From positions 2,640,637-2,704,636 of the forward strand of contig NW_022985162.1 in the NCBI RefSeq assembly GCF_010093535.1: 64,000 bases of DNA, read 5' to 3'. Shown here piece by piece: positions 4,434-54,677 of the stretch; the first letter of the stretch is position 1, and each line of letters opens with the position of its first letter. This stretch comes from Lindgomyces ingoldianus (lineage: Eukaryota > Ascomycota > Dothideomycetes > Pleosporales > Lindgomycetaceae). A model generated the notes under the pieces. It saw nothing but the letters and a program-made list of their open reading frames with translations, had not been told where the DNA came from and did no database searches. The position numbers and the translations under genes are program-made.

Positions 4434-5280
4434 CAGGGCTTCCAACGGGCCGTACTACGGTCCGTACAAAGTGAACCGTAACGGTCACGTGTTTAGTACA
4501 AACGTACTGAGTTCGTGAGCCGTACCGTACGTTTAATGATGCCCTAGGTACAGTACGTAATACAGATTGTATTACCCTTTAGGAAGTTTGTATAGGGGTT
4601 CTAAAAAGGTAGGAGGGCTCTAATTCGCTAAGAGTTTTGCAAGGACGCTTAAATCTCTTTTTAAAGGGTTTAAAAATGCCTCTTAAGGACTATTTTCTAT
4701 TATAGAGTTATCTATCTACGCCTCTTACTGCCTTACAGGCCTTATCTAGTTAATTAGATCCCTTTGTTATTAGTCTTATAGGTTGCAGAAGTTAAAAGCC
4801 CTCTACACTGCGTCTCCTGCCTTATCCCGCGATAGTACACAGGCTGTGGCTAAAGATTAATTGCAGTAGTCCCTAGAGGACTGCAATCACATTGCGAGGC
4901 AATTGTACACTGTTAAAGGTGTAGGCTTATGGCGCAGATATAACGCCCCTAGAGGAGCAGGGCAAGGTAATCCGCCTCTAGCTCTACTGTTAGTGTTATA
5001 AGTAAACATATCTACTCTTGTTACTAGAGAGAAATAGCTATTTTATAGTTAATTAGACCTTAATCTTGCGTCTCTAGAGACTTATAGTCTTAGTTATTTT
5101 AACTAGAGTACAGCGTACTTTAATTAAATTGTACTACTTGTACAGATTACGTGAGCTGTAACAGTTACAATACGTACACCTACCTCTCCTCCTCCCTGTC
5201 GTACGAACGTACACAAAATCTCACCCGTACAGCCTCAAAATCGCCCAATCGTACAGTACTACGCCTCGTTGGAAGCCCTG
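4434..5280. mobile_element. Non-autonomous hAT element (847 bp deletion derivative)
   Basis: Bounded by inverted ends CAGGGCTTCCAACG / CGTTGGAAGCCCTG and flanked by a perfect 8-bp direct duplication GTGATGTG (4426-4433 and 5281-5288), the hallmark length of hAT insertions. Both ends match the 3,072-bp hAT at 49853-52924. The left part aligns to about 50600 of that copy and the right part resumes near 52660, so this copy lacks the transposase region. It encodes nothing. Many differences from the long copy are TG-to-TA or CA-to-TA. Subterminal regions are rich in CGTAC/GTACG words. Confidence 0.92.
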
Positions 5281-45360: not shown

Positions 45361-46570
45361 TTATCTATATCAGACAGTGAATAGTCTTGGCCATTTCGTT
45401 GGAGTTTTCAAAATTGGGGCGAAGCTAGGTGGGAGTTAGAATGCGCAGAGAATAGCTACTGAGTATTATTTCTTGTTCTCGTTATCTATTTATTTGTAGG
45501 CTCTGGCGCAGTTACAGAATGTTAACATCAGAAGTGGCCACTGCCTGAAACAACGATTCTGACTGCCCGCTTCCCTGGAAGACCATACACATGTCCCGGG
45601 GAAGAGGAACTCCGCTGAAGCATTATGAAGCCTGAAAGAAATGGGGAAATCTACTCGCCATCAGCCCTCTACATCTAGTCTTCATAGAGAGGATAGTAAA
45701 GTCGTGCATATAGCATATACTGCGTGTACATTCGTTTGTTTTGTTCAGCTCATAGACCTGCAAAGAAAAGACCCATACAGGTAATAAAGAGTGCCGGAAC
45801 TAGAGCGATTTAAAAAAGGATTATGTTCTGGATGAAAATAATGGAAATTACATGAGGGTGGGACGGCAAACTCAGCATTGCTGTATTGCCGTTAGAAAAA
45901 CCCAACACCGCCATTCCGCCATATCATGTTCAGGGATCACCCACCATCAACACTCCAACGTCAATATATAAGTCTTGCTCACTAATTCTCATAATAATGT
46001 TGACATATTTGATTAGACACCAAGATTGCACTAGACCTTCTCGACACCTTTCAACGGCTTGAGTGGGCTGCGTACTTTAGGTAATAGCTTCGTGTTGGAC
46101 GTCAATAAATGTAGGAACTCCATCCGGAAGCGCCTCAGTCTACTCTTACACTCTCTTTCCACTGCCAGGCATTTCACTTCAACAGAATTCCATTTGCCTT
46201 CTGCTAGGGCGACACCTTGCAACAATTGCAAATAAAACTAGAAAAGCTGCCTGCAACACTAGACGCAGGTTTTTCTGATGGCATGATCAAATCTGTATCA
46301 GTTTGCTTAATTTGTGCAGCTGTTAATCCCACTCTCGGTACCATTCGTCATTCCCCGCGTAAAATTTCTACTGGCTCACTAGCTCAGGTGCCGATCCCTT
46401 TAACTATGGAAGAAACAACATTCGGAAAACAGCACGCTTCTTCCCTGTTCTCTCTAAGAGACTTATGACCATTTCATCTTTAAATGGCTCCTGAAAATGC
46501 CCATAACACATGATACCACAGCACAAAGTTGGGGGGGTCCTAATGCGGGAAGCCTTGCGAGGAGAATTTG

Positions 46571-46611
46571 GAGGTTACACGTCAGCAGGCCAACGCTAAA
46601 GGTGGGGCAGC
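46571..46611 (+). repeat. MULE left terminal inverted repeat
   Basis: 41 bp; shares the core GGCCAACGCTAAAGGT with the right end. Differs from it at repeat positions 10, 11, 17, 34 and 39. Confidence 0.88.
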
Positions 46612-46721
46612 TACACGCTAATGCATACTAACGTCTTGGCAGGATTTTGTTGGCCTGATGAAATCTCTGCTGGACTGGTCTCTTCAAATCCTCTTCCGTT
46701 CCTACTACTTACTTACTAGCC

Positions 46722-49700
46722 ATGCAAAACCTAGATTTTAACTTGCTACAACAGACTGCTCAGCCCCAAAATCAAGATGAGCAAGATTGGGTAGGAGTGG
46801 AGGACGAAGAAGGTAGTGAGGTTGATGATGAGGTATAAACATGTTCACAATAGGTTAACAAGACGTTGGTAACATGCTATTAGCAAAATCAGGAGCTCAC
46901 AATTCTTACGTCGTCTGCCGCAGCACCTCTACGTACAGCTAGAATCCAGCAAGCTCAAGTCCTTCCTGAGTATCCGCAAACACTACCTAGAGGGTATACA
47001 TATTGTGTTAGTACAGATAAGAGGGATATTAAGGAGGTGCTTCAAGAAGCATTAGCAGTGAGCAATATATTCCTAACATGTTCTAAACATCTTTTGCTGA
47101 CCTTCAGTTTCAATACTGCCGCAAGAATAAAGCGAAGAAGAAAGGCACTACTTGCCTCTACCTCGGCGGCCAGGCTTTGCGGTGGAAATACCAATGCACT
47201 GGGGCAAAGTATTGTCAATACCTTGAAAACAGCTTACGAACACGTTCACATTGTCATGCAAGCGCACAACTCTGGGAGGAGCTTCGTCAATATCGACGAA
47301 CTCCTCTTAGAGAAGAGACTAATAAGAAGAAGAGACACTCTCTAGGTCTGTATCTGTCAGTTCAACATCGGTTTAGTATAGGAGTTGCTTGTGAGACTCA
47401 CACAGTACGGTGCAGCCCAATTTTACGCCAAACAAGCTTCCCTGTAAGCAATACGTTCATAACGTGTTTGTAACGTGATAGTAATTAGTTTAGAGCGTGT
47501 CCGGAGTTCAATATTGGTATATTAGCTGCTCAGAATGGCGGCAGCAGACGCAACGCACTGAGGACCATTTCTTTAGAAGGATTACAGAGAAGCATGATCA
47601 TGAACACCTTCAGAAGCTGTTTAGAGAGGGTTTTGAACATGTCCCAGAGACTACAGAAACTTGCTGTACTGTTGAACCAAATACGTCGCGATTACCAAAG
47701 TGTGGCAAGTTATCCCCTCTTAAACTTATTCTTAATACTATACTAATTCGTTCTAAAGACGTTAACCACCCGCAAGGCCACGCCCACTTCCTACAGTGGA
47801 CGTGTCCTGTTGAGTTTGATATCATCATCCCATTACATTTAGAACGTATTCCGTTCTTCCTCTTCTGCTCTCATGGCGAGCATACGCATCTACCTCCTCC
47901 TCCCCATCGCCCCCCTGAAGAAATTATACAAGGAATTACCAAATTAATCCAGAGAGAGAGGGATCCAACAGTTACACAAGGTAAGTATGTCTTAAGGTGT
48001 TTGTAACATGTTGTTAACTTGTTAAAGCCCAGTTTCTCAGTTCCCCTGCCCTTAAGGAGTTCTGCCGTCAAAATAACGCTGTCTCTCTCATCCAAATCCA
48101 TCAATCTTTTGCTAATATGGATCGGATCACACGGATCCTTTGGAGAGAGCGCCTGGCTATGTTCCCTGCAGGGCAGCATGTACAGGGTGTTATTGTAGAG
48201 CATATGACAAAGCACCAGAACCCTGAGCGTGTTGGTAACCTAATCAGAACGTGATTAGAACGCTTTCAGAACGCAACACTTACTTCTTCTAGGCCTATAT
48301 CCGAGAAATTTTTGTTGAGGATGGTAGGACTATGATTATATGTTTTTTTACAGAGCAAGCTGAGGTCTTTGCCTCCCTAAAGACATTCCAATGTGATATG
48401 TCATTCAAGAGGACCTTTAAGAACGGGTTTCGTGAGATTACCTTTGCATTCTTTAACGAATCACATGGCAAGCGTATGATAACATGTTCTAAACGCTTTC
48501 TATACTTAATACTAACCTGTTTTAGTTTTTACTCTTGCGCGCATCTTTGTCAATAGCGACAGTCCACAGATGTATATGCGGTGCTTTCAGAGACTATTTA
48601 CATTACTTTCTGAACGTACTGGGAAGAATCTTAACTGCTGGCGACACCTCCATAATGAGGGGTTTGATGGAATGACAGTTGATATGGACTGGAAGCGGAT
48701 GGAAGGTATAATACATTTATCAACATAATATGAACGCGTTCCTAACGTGTTACTAAGGCTTTGGATTGTACCTAACAGAACTGGATACAAGTCGACGTCC
48801 CTGGGACTGGCAGCTACAGAATTGTATTCGGTTCTGTGTTGTACACTTTAAGCGGAGTATTACCCAAGCAACACCAGGCTCAGAACGCCATCAGGACAGT
48901 GTCTGCACCCGTATGCAAGCTCTTCTTACTTGTGAGAGCATGGAAGACTATCATACGCTTGGTAATCTGCTTCGAGGTAAATAAAGACTTTGAGAACATA
49001 TTGACATTACGTTGCTAATTTCTTTAGCTCAAGAGAGCGCACCTATTGCTAACTGGGCAGCTCACAAGTTGATCCCTGTTATAGCAGCTGGTTTAAACCA
49101 ACATTGCTCATTAATTCCAAAAGATGTTTGGAATACAATGTCACCAAATTCAAACGCAGCAGAACAGGCTGCAGAGAAGTCATACTCCTACGGGAAAGGG
49201 CTTCCAGTACTTTCTGCAGTCCTCAGGTTTGTGAACGTTACATATTATGATAGAAATATGTTCTAAACATCTTCAGTGGAATGAAGCTTGACCAGAGAGA
49301 TATCGACCAACTAGGAGCAAGAGAGGACGACGTACGGCACGTCTCAAAATCTACATCAATAACAAACCGCTATATTGCAAGCTTAGGAAGAGAGAGTAAG
49401 ATAACATCCTCATAACGTCTTCACAACGTGTTAGTAATAGCTTATTTACTCTAATGTGTAGAACGAAAGCGTGAAATGGAGCTTGAAGATATACGTACAA
49501 GCAGCTCCAGCAGAGCCTCATCTCTAGTCCCTACAAACGAGTTACTAAGGCGTTCAAACTCATCTGGTACTATACGGGGCCGTTCAAGGTCGACAGCATC
49601 ACGATCACGATCACGATCACACTCGCCATCAGTAGCTCAGTGTCCAAGGAACTCAAGGTATGTTCACAACCTGTTATGAATCTATTCTGGCCTAATTAGT

Positions 49701-49900
49701 CTAGTCCTGTCACTGCTACTAGTCAGGGCCTTAAGCGTCAAGCTATTGAAAATAATCAAGAGCTTCAACTTCAGCGGGAGAAGCTTGAGCTTCGTGAGAA
49801 GGCAGCAGAAATTGAGAGAAAGGAACTTGCAAATATGAGGGAAAGGTTAGACCAGGGCTTCCAACGGGCCGTACTACGGTCCGTACAAAGTGAACCGTAA
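46722..49900 (+). CDS. MULE transposase, 12 exons, last exon interrupted by hAT
   Basis: Exons 46722-46832, 46884-47057, 47108-47443, 47494-47980, 48028-48230, 48293-48473, 48526-48705, 48758-48976, 49028-49226, 49277-49395, 49462-49657 and 49705 onward join in phase. Before the hAT insertion the gene ended at TAA 52963-52965 and coded for 861 residues. Now the frame runs into the hAT end and stops at 49900, swapping the last 11 residues for 15 others. Domains: acidic N-terminus; a Cys/His-rich FLYWCH-like region (YQCTGAKYCQYL ... SHCHA); then a MULE-type DDE core with a first Asp in TFQCDMSFKRTFKNGFREIT, LARIFVNSDSPQMYMRCFQR, VDMDW, and a CxxxH-like FCVVHFKRSI; a Ser/Arg-rich linker and a Glu/Lys/Arg coiled-coil C-terminus (about 800-850). 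Introns are 47-66 nt and made of the 11-bp monomers. Family by core motifs and 9-bp TSD; catalytic residues are inferred. Confidence 0.8.
46838..46878. repeat. 11-bp monomer array in transposase intron 1
   Basis: Four consecutive monomers at exactly 11-bp spacing: AACATGTT (46838), AATAGGTT (46849), AAGACGTT (46860), AACATGCT (46871). They fill most of the 51-nt intron 46833-46883. Confidence 0.85.
47450..47490. repeat. 11-bp monomer array in transposase intron 3
   Basis: AATACGTT (47450), AACGTGTT (47461), AACGTGAT (47472), AATTAGTT (47483), each 11 bp apart, inside intron 47444-47493. Confidence 0.85.
48248..48277. repeat. 11-bp monomer array in transposase intron 5
   Basis: AACGTGAT (48248), AACGCTTT (48259), AACGCAAC (48270), each 11 bp apart, inside intron 48231-48292. 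Confidence 0.8.
48722..48762. repeat. 11-bp monomer array in transposase intron 7
   Basis: AACATAAT (48722), AACGCGTT (48733), AACGTGTT (48744), AAGGCTTT (48755), each 11 bp apart; the last overlaps the acceptor of intron 48706-48757. Confidence 0.85.
49403..49432. repeat. 11-bp monomer array in transposase intron 10
   Basis: AACATCCT (49403), AACGTCTT (49414), AACGTGTT (49425), each 11 bp apart, inside intron 49396-49461. Confidence 0.85.
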
Positions 49901-52900
49901 CGGTCACGTGTTCAGTACGAACGTACTGAGTTCGTGAGCCGCACCGTACGGTTAATGATGCCCTAGGTACGGTACGTAGTACGGATCGTATTACCCTTTT
50001 GGGAAGTTTTTATAGCGATTCTGGAGGAGTAGGAGGACTCTGGTGAGCAGGAGGTCTGCGGGGAGAGCTTCTAGAGCTCTGATTGGCTGAAAGTTTTGTG
50101 AGGGCGCTTAAATCTCTTTCTAAGGGGTTTGATCTATCCATCTGCGGTCTGTTGTCTTAAAAATGCCTATTACAGACTATTTTCTATTGCAGAGTTATCC
50201 ATCTACGCGTCTTGCCGCCTTACAGGCCTTATCTAGTTGATTAGATCCCTCTGTTGTCTATTTTGCGCAGTCTTGTAGGCTGTAGAAGTTGAAAGCCCTC
50301 TACACCGCGTCTTCTGCCTTATCCCGCGATAGTACACTGTCTGTGGCTGAAGATTAATTGCAGCAGTTCCTAGAGGACTGCAATTGTAACGCTGGTGTTG
50401 AGTTTGCAATTAATTGGAATAATATATGGCTATTGGACTTAAAACAGGCGTTGCCCTTAGCGCAATTAGGTTACTGAGTAAAGAACAAGACTACCTTGCG
50501 AGGTAATTGTACGCTGTTAAAGGTGTGGGCTTATGGCGCGGATATAACGCTCCTAGAGGAGCAGGGCAAGGTAATCTGCCTCTGGCTCTGCTGTTGGTGT
50601 CATGAGCAGGGCTCTTAAGGCGCTGCAAAGGTGGTGGATGGCTATAACTATATTGTTTGGCACCTACTAAGGGAGCATAAGGTTAACGTTGATGGAGAGC
50701 TCTTACTTGATGGCGTACGGCTACCGCAGCACCCATGGGAGGCAGCTAGAGGAGCAGCAGGCTTGTCGCGGGGGTTATCTTATACACTATGGCAGGAGGG
50801 TCCTCTGCGCAGTGCCCTAGTTGACTAGGTTATAGTGCAGGATTAGTTGTTTAAAAAGGCTATTTTATTAGAGACCTGTAGTCTTATTAGCTAGAATTGC
50901 ATAGATCTTCTTGCTGCCCTACCACATTCCGCCACCACGCTCTCTAAGGATATCCACGCTGCACTTGTGCAGCGAAAGAAGGAGATTTAAACAATACTAA
51001 TTACTGCGCTGTTAAAAATTGCGCTAAGCGTAGATATGTGGTGTTCTGGAAACCACCTTTCCTTCCTCGCAGTAGTGGCTCACTTTGTTGGTATGCGCGC
51101 ACGGGCCACTATTGTGAGAACTCTGTAACTGACGACAGCTAGATGCCTCACACGCTTAGCGAGACCTCTTAATTGGCTTTAAAAACCTATACAGTGACTA
51201 TACTGGCAGTGCGCAAGCCTCTGAGATAGCTGCTATTATTAACAAGTATGATATTACGTTAAAATTTAGCTGCTTTGTTAGGGATAACGCGTTAAATAAC
51301 GACAATAAGCTTATCTAGAGCCTTAATGAGGAGCTTAACCTGCTGTACGAGCTTGATGGACAGCACTGAATCTGCTGCGCTGCCTATATAATCTAGGTAG
51401 TTGTCAAAGCTATTATATACAGCAAAGGTGTTATAAAATTTGAGCAGGAGCTTGCTAGAGCTGCTCTACGCGATTAATTTGAGCTATATAGAAAGTGTGG
51501 AGTTGTTAGACAACTCTATAACTTTGTAAACGGCGTGCTGGCATCACATAAGCGCATGAGGCTTTTTAAGACTCTCTAAATTAACATTGCAGAGAAGGAC
51601 TTAATTTGGTAGTTTAGCACGCTTAATCTAGTGCGTGATGGCGGAGTACGCTGGCACTTAGTTTACCTTATGCTATTACGCTGTTATGAGCTTAGAGAGG
51701 CTATTAGTTGCTTCTAACAGCAATGGAGAGGCTCTTCTAATGCTGATGAGGAGACTTGATGAGCTGGCTTTGATGCCCTAGCAGATCTTATTACTGAAGA
51801 TGATTAGGATGAGATTAAGCGCCTTAAGGACTTTTTAGAGAAGTTTTATTAGATAACAAAGAGACTTAAGGGCTAGGGCTTATCTGGCTTACTATGGAGG
51901 ACTATAACAGAGCTTTAGTGCCTCTAAATCTACCTTAATTGAATGAGAGTAATTACTGCTGACAAGCTAAGTGACTTGTACCTTAAAAACGCTGTTAAGT
52001 TTGGCTATTAAAAGCTTACTACTTACTGGGGTAAACTAATTCTTAATCTGCTAGTCTTGTACTACGCAGTTGCTACTATCCTTAACCCTTAATTGCGCTT
52101 ACTTTAGTTTTAAGATTACTGGCGGCATTATAAGAGCTGGGTGGATAAGGTAACTAGGTTGATGGAGACGATCTTTAACTAGTATTTAGATGCTGAGGAT
52201 AAGCATAAGGTTAAGGATGAGCTATTATCTCCTAGGCGTTGTAAGCTGCCAGGTGGCGACTATTATGACAACAATTATAAGGCTTGCCTCTCTGTTAACC
52301 TCTCTCTTATGATGAATTAGCGCTTACATAAGCGTAAGAAGGTGTTAAATGAGCTGCAGCTTTACTATGACTCTATAAGAGCTGATTACTACAAAGATTA
52401 CCCCTTACTACGCGGAGAACCCCTACAATAGTGGCTTACTAGAGGCAAAACAGCCTATCCTATCCTCTTTAAGATTGCCCTTGATTTCCTTACTATCCCA
52501 GCTACTAGTTGCGAGTGTGAGAGGTGTTTTAGCGCGGCTGGTTGTACGGTAACTGACGATTGAGGCTTACTAAAAAGTGCGATGATTGAGGCTATTCAAC
52601 TCCAGAAGAACTGGCTACGGCACAAGGTAGTGAGCAGCGAGCTTTTAGACCTCTCTGCTTTTGTTACTAGGGAGAATTAGTTATTTTATGGTTAATTAGA
52701 CCTTAATCTTGCGTCTCTAGAGACCTATAATCTTAGCTGTTTTGACTAGAGTACGGCGTACTTTAATTGAATTGTACTACTTGTACAGATCACGTGAGCC
52801 GTAACAGTTACGATACGTACACCTACCTCTCCTCCTCCCTGCCGTACGAACGTACCCAAAATCTCACCCGTACAGGCCTCAAAATCGCCCAATCGTACAG

Positions 52901-52924
52901 TACTACGCCTCGTTGGAAGCCCTG
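49853..52924. mobile_element. hAT transposon (3,072 bp) nested in the MULE transposase gene
   Basis: Ends CAGGGCTTCCAACG / CGTTGGAAGCCCTG, flanked by a perfect 8-bp duplication GGTTAGAC (49845-49852 and 52925-52932), which restores the MULE transposase frame when one copy and the element are removed. Subterminal 200 bp at both ends are dense in CGTAC/GTACG. The interior carries a broken hAT transposase. Same family as the 847-bp element at 4434-5280. Confidence 0.93.
50631..52680 (+). pseudogene. Degenerate hAT transposase
   Basis: The frame is full of stops, mostly TAG and TAA. Recognisable is the C-terminal hAT dimerisation block at about 52453-52545, reading YPILFKIALDFLTIPATSCE and then CERCFSAAG. 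Upstream, pieces such as RGLSYTLWQEGP (ending 50828) and IWSLNEELNLLYELDGQH-like sequence near 51310-51370 belong to the same gene but need stop readthrough. Many TAG codons sit where CAG or TGG is plausible, consistent with C-to-T or G-to-A damage. The element cannot make its own transposase. Confidence 0.75.
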
Positions 52925-53036
52925 GGTTAGACCTAGAGGAGAGAAAGGCCAAGTTAAGATTGTAATATAAACATGTTATGGATATGTTACAATTATGTTG
53001 CCCTTTAGAGAAAGAAATTGAACTGATGCTATTGCG

Positions 53037-53077
53037 AACTTGTTAACAACACGTTAAAAATACGTTAAAAACGCCTT
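53037..53077. repeat. 11-bp monomer array between the two convergent genes
   Basis: AACTTGTT (53037), AACACGTT (53048), AATACGTT (53059), AACGCCTT (53070), each 11 bp apart, in the 375-bp space between the two stop codons. Another run starts at 52970 (AACATGTT, GATATGTT, ATTATGTT, also 11 bp apart). This shows the motif is not restricted to introns. Confidence 0.85.
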
Positions 53078-53339
53078 CGGATACTCACGTTACCGCAGAG
53101 ATGTGGGTCCATAAAATGACTTCATTACGTTGAGATCATGTTCTAAAGAGCATGTGGTGAGGTTGTACAGTTCCAACCTCAAGGACATAAGTTGTTACTT
53201 CCATTTGATTAAGGGAAGACCTATTCCTAGCACCTCGAGAACACCTTCCGAACACCTCGAGAACAGAAATGAACTGGGCATCTAATCATCATGATATGCC
53301 TCTAACATGTTCAGAATTGAATTCGGACCATATGTGAAC

Positions 53340-54337
53340 TTATTCCTCATCATCCTCGCCCTCTGAGTCATCCCAGCCTTTGAACCACTTAGTGCTCCGA
53401 CAGGCATCGTCCCATTTGCATTCTAAACGTGTTAAGAACAGGTTAGAAAAATACAAGGAAAAGTAAATTACCTTTTAGGTTTCCCTTGCCCTTGATAGCA
53501 GCAAGGCTATTGCAAACCTTACAAGGAAATTCCCCACCTGCCTTCTTGATCATATTTCCAGCCGCAGTAAAGTTAACCTGAACATATCCTTAACAGGTTA
53601 TTAATAGCTTAGTAGGGTAGAAACCTACATCTCCAGATTTCTGACCCTTCTTGCTGTTTGTCTCCCTGTAGAGAGGAAGCTCAAACCGATCAGAACCTGT
53701 TGGGATCTCCTTCGGATCAGGTTGGACTCGAGATGTGCGACGACGAGGTACCAGCGGAGGCTCAGGCACGTTCGGAACAGGTTCAGAACGCTTTCTGTCG
53801 GCGATATCGTTATGCGTCTTCATGAGTGCTGAAAAGAACACTAGTATGCTGTTAGGAACGTGTTGTGAATGGCTTCTCAAGAGCTTACCACGAGCGGCAC
53901 TGATCTTTGCCATAGAAGGGTTCCCAGTCTTATCTGCTGCCTTTACTTCGACCTCTGGATGGTACTTCTTGATGTGATTGACCAGTGCGCCTCGCGTTTG
54001 GAACATATTCTGAACCCGTTAGCAAATTGTTTAGAAGAGAAATCAACATGTTTACAACAGGTTGAGGACAGAATGTCACTCACCCCGCACAGCTCATCGC
54101 CCACCTTCACCCTGCAATATATCTCCCCAAGGTAGACGTTAATAGTACCATCTTCGTCCTGAACGCGTTAGAAACCCGTTGCGATTAGATTGAGATGTGT
54201 ACCGCAGGGAAAGGCTTAGCGCCAAAGGGCAAGCAACCGAGGCGGCTGTACGCCTTGTAGGCTTCCTGGAACACGTTCAGATGAGTTATACAACGTAATT
54301 AGGGGTTACTTACGCTCATTAGAAGTTGTTTAGACAT
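53340..54337 (-). CDS. MULE accessory protein with zinc-finger-like motifs, 7 exons
   Basis: No family recognised. The ATG at 54337 (MSKQLLMS) lies about 110 bp inside the right terminal repeat. Seven exons join in phase to 223 residues, ending TAA at 53340. A CRVKVGDELCGNMFQTRGAL segment followed by HIKKYH gives Cys-x7-Cys and His-x4-His, a C2H2/BED-like finger around residues 45-75. The middle is basic and Pro/Arg-rich (RRRTSR). Near the C-terminus FPCKVCNSL and ECKWDDACRS give Cys-x2-Cys and Cys-x5-Cys, a possible second zinc site, followed by an acidic tail. Convergent arrangement with the transposase and DNA-binding-like motifs suggest a helper for end binding or regulation, formally like mudrB of maize MuDR, but no sequence similarity is claimed. 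Introns end in …GTTCAG, …GTTCCAG, …CTTTTCAG or …GTTTAG, most at 11-bp monomer borders. Confidence 0.68.
54045..54180. repeat. 11-bp monomer pairs in accessory-gene introns
   Basis: Exact pairs AACATGTT/AACAGGTT (54045, 54056) and AACGCGTT/AACCCGTT (54162, 54173), both 11 bp start to start. The latter pair spans the acceptor side of an accessory-gene intron. Confidence 0.8.
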
Positions 54338-54445
54338 GTTCGCAATGTGTTGTCGAGAGGTAGTGAGAGGTCGGAGGGATTTTGGTTTGTGTGTGGCCGG
54401 GCGAGGTTTCCGATGGACGGCTGACCTTTAACGATGCTTGGCATG

Positions 54446-54486
54446 GCCGCCCTACCTTTAGCGTTGGCCAGCTGAGTTGTAACCTC
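54446..54486 (-). repeat. MULE right terminal inverted repeat
   Basis: Reverse complement begins GAGGTTACAACTCAGCTGGC and aligns ungapped to the left repeat, 36/41 identical. Confidence 0.88.
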
Positions 54487-54677
54487 GAGGATTTGCAGCC
54501 CTATACCTGAGACCTCAAACTTTCCTACCCCGCAGCTAGCATCAAAAATCAAGACGCTTTCCTTACCCACTTGTTCCCGGCAGTTTATTCTCCTTGACCT
54601 GAAAGTCGTGCTCCGTCCACAGATAACAAATTAATTGGGAACCAGCTTGCACCATCGGATCCTCCAGCATCACAAAC

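Follow-up and report, generated by a model that had tools for sequence, protein, structure and literature searches.

Helically phased palindromic sites across a transposon of Lindgomyces ingoldianus, possible docking sites for a DNA-binding protein

Lindgomyces ingoldianus is a freshwater fungus of the Pleosporales. A 64,000-bp stretch of its genome (contig NW_022985162.1, positions 2,640,637 to 2,704,636 of the forward strand; termed the window, in which positions are counted below) contains a DNA transposon that raises a simple question: why do its many tiny introns hold the same short palindrome, AACNNGTT, at intervals of 11 bp? The element extends from 46571 to 54486, as delimited by inverted repeats and target duplications. 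It carries a putative transposase gene (T), an accessory zinc-finger gene (Z), and a nested hAT transposon, and measures 4,844 bp once the hAT is subtracted. The phased palindromes had been noticed in a preliminary description made from the letters alone; as a whole the observation is confirmed here, and its extent is larger than was stated. Short palindromes recurring every 11 bases, about one helical turn, are present in nearly all introns and several of the longer exons of the element, and also in very diverged relatives of the same genome; this suggests a series of sites at which a DNA-binding protein could dock. The explanation favoured here, to which we give somewhat less than an even chance, is that the element carries dispersed, helically phased sites for a sequence-specific dimeric DNA-binding protein, probably encoded by the element and acting against silencing in the manner of VANC proteins.

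One line of evidence is the frequency of the motif. The element without its hAT contains 30 exact copies, whereas dinucleotide shuffles yield a mean of 1.52 and a maximum of 8 (n=2,000); this computed number replaces an earlier hand count of 28, and the enrichment stands. Both the nested hAT (1 observed, 0.74 expected) and the 56 kb of flanking DNA (14 observed, 12.0 expected) are at chance, as had been described, and none of 40 intron-like stretches of the flanks, collected with a crude pattern, carries the motif. In the whole window, 45 copies compare with 13.8 in shuffled sequence (maximum 26 among 100 shuffles). Among the 4,096 words of the 3+2+3 type, AACNNGTT ranks first in the element with its 30 occurrences, followed by a runner-up with 15, the word mean being 1.2.

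Another is the spacing. Of all distances below 60 bp between exact sites of the element, 11 bp alone recurs, in the six pairs already listed in the preliminary description (48005/48016, 48733/48744, 53037/53048, 53426/53437, 54045/54056, and 54162/54173). When one mismatch is allowed, 79 units are found, with 28 pairs 11 bp apart, 14 at 22 bp and 8 at 33 bp, and every other distance below 70 bp is seen at most three times. Additionally, identity autocorrelation peaks in the element at lag 11 (z score 4.6), as had been anticipated, and at lag 22 (z score 3.0); in the flanks, the highest lags are multiples of 3.

By our inspection of the site list, modelled introns account for 22 of the 30 exact sites, the spacer between the genes for 3, and coding exons for 5; the 25 non-coding sites match the number first given. 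Introns and spacers had been described as built from an 11-bp palindromic monomer. Its concentration there holds, and the unit is better written as AACRYGTTNNN; "built from" fits the introns only. Exons and the intergenic spacer contain arrays as well. The features concerned are as follows.

46722..53021, plus strand: putative transposase gene T, split by the nested hAT, with 13 modelled introns of 47-66 bp
46833..46883, plus strand: T intron 1, array with 46838 and in-register units
47058..47107, plus strand: T intron 2, array (47075)
47228..47246, plus strand: exonic phased pair in the longest T exon
47444..47493, plus strand: T intron 3, array with 47450, 47461 and in-register units
47603..47621, plus strand: exonic phased pair of near-match units
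47705..47758, plus strand: T intron 4 (GC-AG), near-match units only
47981..48027, plus strand: T intron 5, array at 48005 and 48016
48231..48292, plus strand: T intron 6, near-match units only
48474..48525, plus strand: T intron 7, array at 48481 and 48514
48706..48757, plus strand: T intron 8, array at 48733 and 48744
48977..49027, plus strand: T intron 9, single near-match unit
49227..49276, plus strand: T intron 10, near-match units only, from 49255
49396..49461, plus strand: T intron 11, array at 49414 and 49425
49536..49554, plus strand: exonic phased pair
49658..49704, plus strand: T intron 12, unit at 49668
52962..53008, plus strand: T intron 13, unit at 52970
53037..53077: intergenic four-unit array past the stop codon of T
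53224..53265: degenerate 11/22-bp repeat between T and Z
53304..53311: lone unit between T and Z
53340..54337, minus strand: accessory zinc-finger gene Z, 227 residues, with 6 introns of 44-74 bp
54266..54313, minus strand: Z intron 1, unit at 54270
54159..54202, minus strand: Z intron 2, array at 54162 and 54173
54010..54083, minus strand: Z intron 3, array at 54013, 54045 and 54056
53841..53888, minus strand: Z intron 4, unit at 53857
53694..53712, minus strand: exonic phased pair in the longest Z exon, with another exact exonic unit at 53776
53578..53628, minus strand: Z intron 5, unit at 53592
53423..53471, minus strand: Z intron 6, array at 53426 and 53437

Is this arrangement restricted to one copy? 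In the 68-Mb assembly, the phased-pair pattern AACNNGTTNNNAACNNGTT occurs 34 times and its reversed control 5 times. Sorted by us against sequence matches, 27 of the 34 fall in this transposon group, namely 6 in the window element, 9 in the relative L038, 11 in copies of a family B (L040, L041, L042, and L043), and 1 in L044, which is partially related to L038; the remaining 7 are roughly what the control gives. Genes were modelled in one copy of each family, namely the window element for family A, L047 for family B, and L038 for family C. The L038 model comprises an 853-residue transposase with 14 introns and a 279-residue zinc-finger protein with 3 introns, both free of internal stops, and that of L047 an 898-residue transposase with 13 introns. 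Transposase identity among the three families is 36-44%, with common intron positions; the Z proteins of families A and C, about 30% identical, both retain two zinc motifs. A further family A copy, L022 on C60, matches each end of the window element at 97-99% identity and is bordered by an exact 9-bp duplication, CACACCCAC. In L038, remnants of a second, antisense zinc-finger-like gene lie past the sense-strand Z (L038:8050-8960, minus strand), with phased units at intron-like gaps. Outside the group, six copies of AACNNGTT, several of them as AACTAGTT, are found within about 120 bp of A+T-rich repeat (L045:4883-5009).

Intron borders were placed by hand, which could favour arrays, and independent checks therefore matter. 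The window T model is supported by alignment with its L038 relative and with database proteins. The deposited protein P0007 is identical to the L038 Z model with its 3 introns (deposited model for this Z: BDR25DRAFT_80037), and P0003 equals the L038 T model across 6 introns; the two part solely at the C-terminal residues of P0003, which come from reading on into the following intron. Consequently, 9 of the 49 introns agree with deposited gene models, the other 40 being based on reading frame and homology. P0001, a homologue of 656 residues, is encoded without interruption on a contig of 2,688 bases, as would be expected of a spliced transcript. Homologues from Amniculicola and Lentithecium (P0010 and P0002) apparently read into introns, giving the extra peptides NNMF and TETCLE; these could encode AACNNGTT-like DNA, a hint, proving nothing, that the motif exists in other species.

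The 49 modelled introns, from five genes of the three families in this one genome, have a mean length of 50.7 nt. They hold 61 exact units, with at least one in 43 of the 49, and in 46 an 11-bp register fits better than in their own shuffles (p<0.05). In the best register, the match averages 0.75, versus 0.44 after shuffling. Between units with at most one mismatch, 83 of 88 distances are multiples of 11 (51 of 11 bp, 25 of 22 bp, and 7 of 33 bp; 5 others). Moreover, 38 of 39 introns at positions shared across the families keep such a unit, while the introns themselves are no more similar there (0.67-0.68) than unrelated introns are (0.68).

These comparisons bear on whether the introns descend from minisatellite or introner insertions of the monomer, as the filling of introns with phased units might imply; the preliminary description had considered a minisatellite. 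In a minisatellite, neighbouring units should resemble each other more than distant ones; here adjacent units are no more similar at free positions than units of other introns (permutation p 0.27-0.45, 50 adjacent pairs), and no signal of tandem duplication is seen. Introners have been recognised by similarity that extends close to both splice sites (PMC9860276). The introns here do share related sequence, but only as the phased motif and within one transposon group, and are equally dissimilar at shared and different positions. Intron positions common to three diverged families indicate, furthermore, that the introns are old. Such an origin is therefore considered very improbable.

An RNA-level role, in which the units are splicing signals defining many tiny introns, has more in its favour: few introns lack an array, the final unit frequently lies directly against the 3' splice site, the AAC half can act as a branch site (15 of the 48 last units contain CTAAC), and constancy of the motif between families would be accounted for. 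However, the consensus AACRYGTT has two similarly conserved half-sites in upstream units (A.80 A.78 C.64 R Y G.58 T.78 T.87) and last units (A.88 A.76 C.71, G.57 T.80 T.84) alike, so that GTT is about as conserved as AAC and upstream units as the last. The motif-free intron-like stretches of the flanks also count against splicing, as do arrays between genes and in exons. Coding exons contain 14 exact sites versus 3.9 under synonymous shuffling, and 10 phased pairs versus 0.93 (maximum 4 in 1,000). We regard a splicing role as improbable.

The exonic pairs are concentrated in long exons, being present in 4 of 5 exons of at least 230 nt versus 5 of 48 shorter ones (p 0.002). By our reading, the pair in the longest T exon of the window also occurs at the matching residues of L038 and L047. 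Internal T exons average 183-202 nt with a coefficient of variation (CV) of 0.22-0.25, evener than random placement in each of three genes (0/20,000). Arrays are also spaced more evenly than at random in L038 (CV 0.37 versus 0.70; 0/5,000) and L047 (CV 0.35 versus 0.70; p 0.001); in the left half of the window element, the evenness is not significant (CV 0.54 versus 0.67; p 0.19).

As to the kind of transposon, the preliminary description had a Mutator-like element (MULE) extending over 46833-54295, borders that are corrected here by the features below.

46562..46570: left copy of the target site duplication, GAGAATTTG; right copy GAGGATTTG at 54487-54495, 8/9 identical
46571..46611, plus strand: left terminal inverted repeat (GAGGTTACACG...), from blastn of the element against itself
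54446..54486, minus strand: right terminal inverted repeat, its inverted partner, 87.8% identical over 41 bp
49853..52924: nested hAT with 8-bp duplication GGTTAGAC, lacking an array

An 847-bp element at 4434-5280 of the window shares its end sequence with the nested hAT and, flanked by an apparent 8-bp duplication, GTGATGTG, is probably a short non-autonomous relative of it; at least 17 further places in the genome match the hAT end.

The 9-bp duplications (8/9 alike in the window; exact for C60, L040, and L041) together with terminal inverted repeats are as in MULEs, with 9-11 bp duplications; a search for element ends of L038 found none. The protein evidence does not back the label. None of seven A2 proteins (L038 T and six database homologues) matches PF10551 at E values up to 10, the window T open reading frame pieces match no transposase family, and the three PF10551 matches of the genome all lie elsewhere. 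An hhalign comparison with one host MULE open reading frame, made with a shallow profile, gave a probability of 0.1, and an AlphaFold2 model of P0001 (mean pLDDT 43) is too poor for the presence or absence of an RNase H-like DDE fold to be read. The superfamily assignment is thus unproven. The Mutator-like elements Mutyl of Yarrowia and Hop of Fusarium likewise duplicate 9 bp of target; in Mutyl there is also a second gene, in antisense orientation, and its sub-group is listed with a C2H2 finger (PMC6446971, PMC5014426). Unlike them, the present element lacks a Pfam MULE match, is intron-rich, and carries phased arrays, of which the excerpts of those two articles mention none.

If a protein is bound, which one is it? 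The transposases of Ac/Ds and Spm bind subterminal repeats located near the ends. Internal transposase-binding sites of that kind, spread element-wide, would likewise supply many short sites for an element protein. Yet the sites here extend along the entire element, and no AACNNGTT occurs in the terminal repeats of families A and B, where transposase would be expected to act. The transposase is hence a rather unlikely ligand.

A host transcription factor or chromatin protein exploited by the element is less likely still. The motif is the same in three families despite diverged Z, and the host has one gene for Grainyhead/CP2, the one family covered by our host-factor search. Grainyhead/CP2 proteins bind as homodimers to palindromic AACCGGTT-type sites with similar specificity in Neurospora, where AACAGGTT is listed near one target (PMC3348937), and AACATGTT is named a putative human GRHL1 site (PMC8087693). 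Sites of the AACATGTT and AACAGGTT types do occur among those of the three elements. However, none of the 85 exact sites of the three elements contains AACCGGTT, 11 of 85 are AACAGGTT/AACCTGTT, and the centre is RY in 64, YR in 1, and CG in 0, opposite to the Grainyhead optimum; nor does flanking host DNA have a motif excess. A Grainyhead site is accordingly disfavoured.

Two further proposals concern the period itself. Phased bending, suggested in the preliminary description, is disfavoured by the unit: its AA and TT steps follow each other at alternating distances of 6 and 5 bp, and intrinsic bends should therefore cancel. Homology pairing in repeat-induced point mutation (RIP) senses triplets at 11 or 12 bp and integrates homology across several hundred bp (PMC4858203). 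The arrays could be its target or decoy, given the equal period and the presence of RIP-mutated copies; against this, each array spans only 30-45 bp and being recognised would harm the element, which makes the idea barely credible. As regards RIP in this genome, L040, L041, and L042 are strongly mutated relative to L047, with CpA and CpG changed at 0.48-0.60 and AAC-context cytosines outside the motif at 0.16-0.25; the host RIP looks sensitive to bases upstream of the cytosine.

The closest known parallel is that of VANDAL21/VANC21 and VANDAL6/VANC6 among Arabidopsis Mutator-like elements, where a single group of DNA transposons has a short motif at high density, chiefly within introns and spacers, that is rarely dense elsewhere, and accessory proteins are encoded by the element (PMC5735166). 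VANC21 binds YAGTATTAY, dense in VANDAL21 introns and in intergenic and terminal non-coding parts (PMC5735166), and its effect spreads over the element (PMC5735166, PMC10398659). A dense non-coding motif, sparse elsewhere, is present here too. VANDAL motifs differ between related families and arise and diverge by tandem duplication, whereas one motif here serves three families without a duplication signal.

In the favoured explanation of dispersed sites for an element-encoded dimer, each site would be the dyad AACRYGTT. Groups of two to four units, placed at 11-bp steps on one face of the helix, recur about every 200 bp along the element, mostly in the short introns, whose sequence can vary freely, and also in long exons and the intergenic spacer. 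The ligand would probably be element-encoded, with Z, as dimers side by side, the first guess and the transposase the second. Coated in this way, the element would be labelled as self and would stay accessible despite host silencing, a role that VANC proteins have on VANDAL elements of Arabidopsis. More doubtfully, the many tiny and regularly spaced introns may be kept as landing pads, each offering one dimeric protein a helical row of two to four sites, with long exons filling the gaps by synonymous-site arrays, so that a periodic coat protects the element or marks it as self and the code stays under selection while all other intron sequence has turned over. Dispersed binding sites for a dimeric protein, among the roles first proposed, are supported, although binding itself is deduced, and the preliminary interpretation is partly supported overall.

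If true, anti-silencing of the VANC/VANDAL kind would have a counterpart in fungi, one whose code is stricter and helically phased, and a defined array would be available for identifying the binding protein. DNA-level selection for protein binding would then be maintaining the spliceosomal introns, and the synonymous sites, of a selfish gene, and the question of why some transposons hold many introns would become directly testable.

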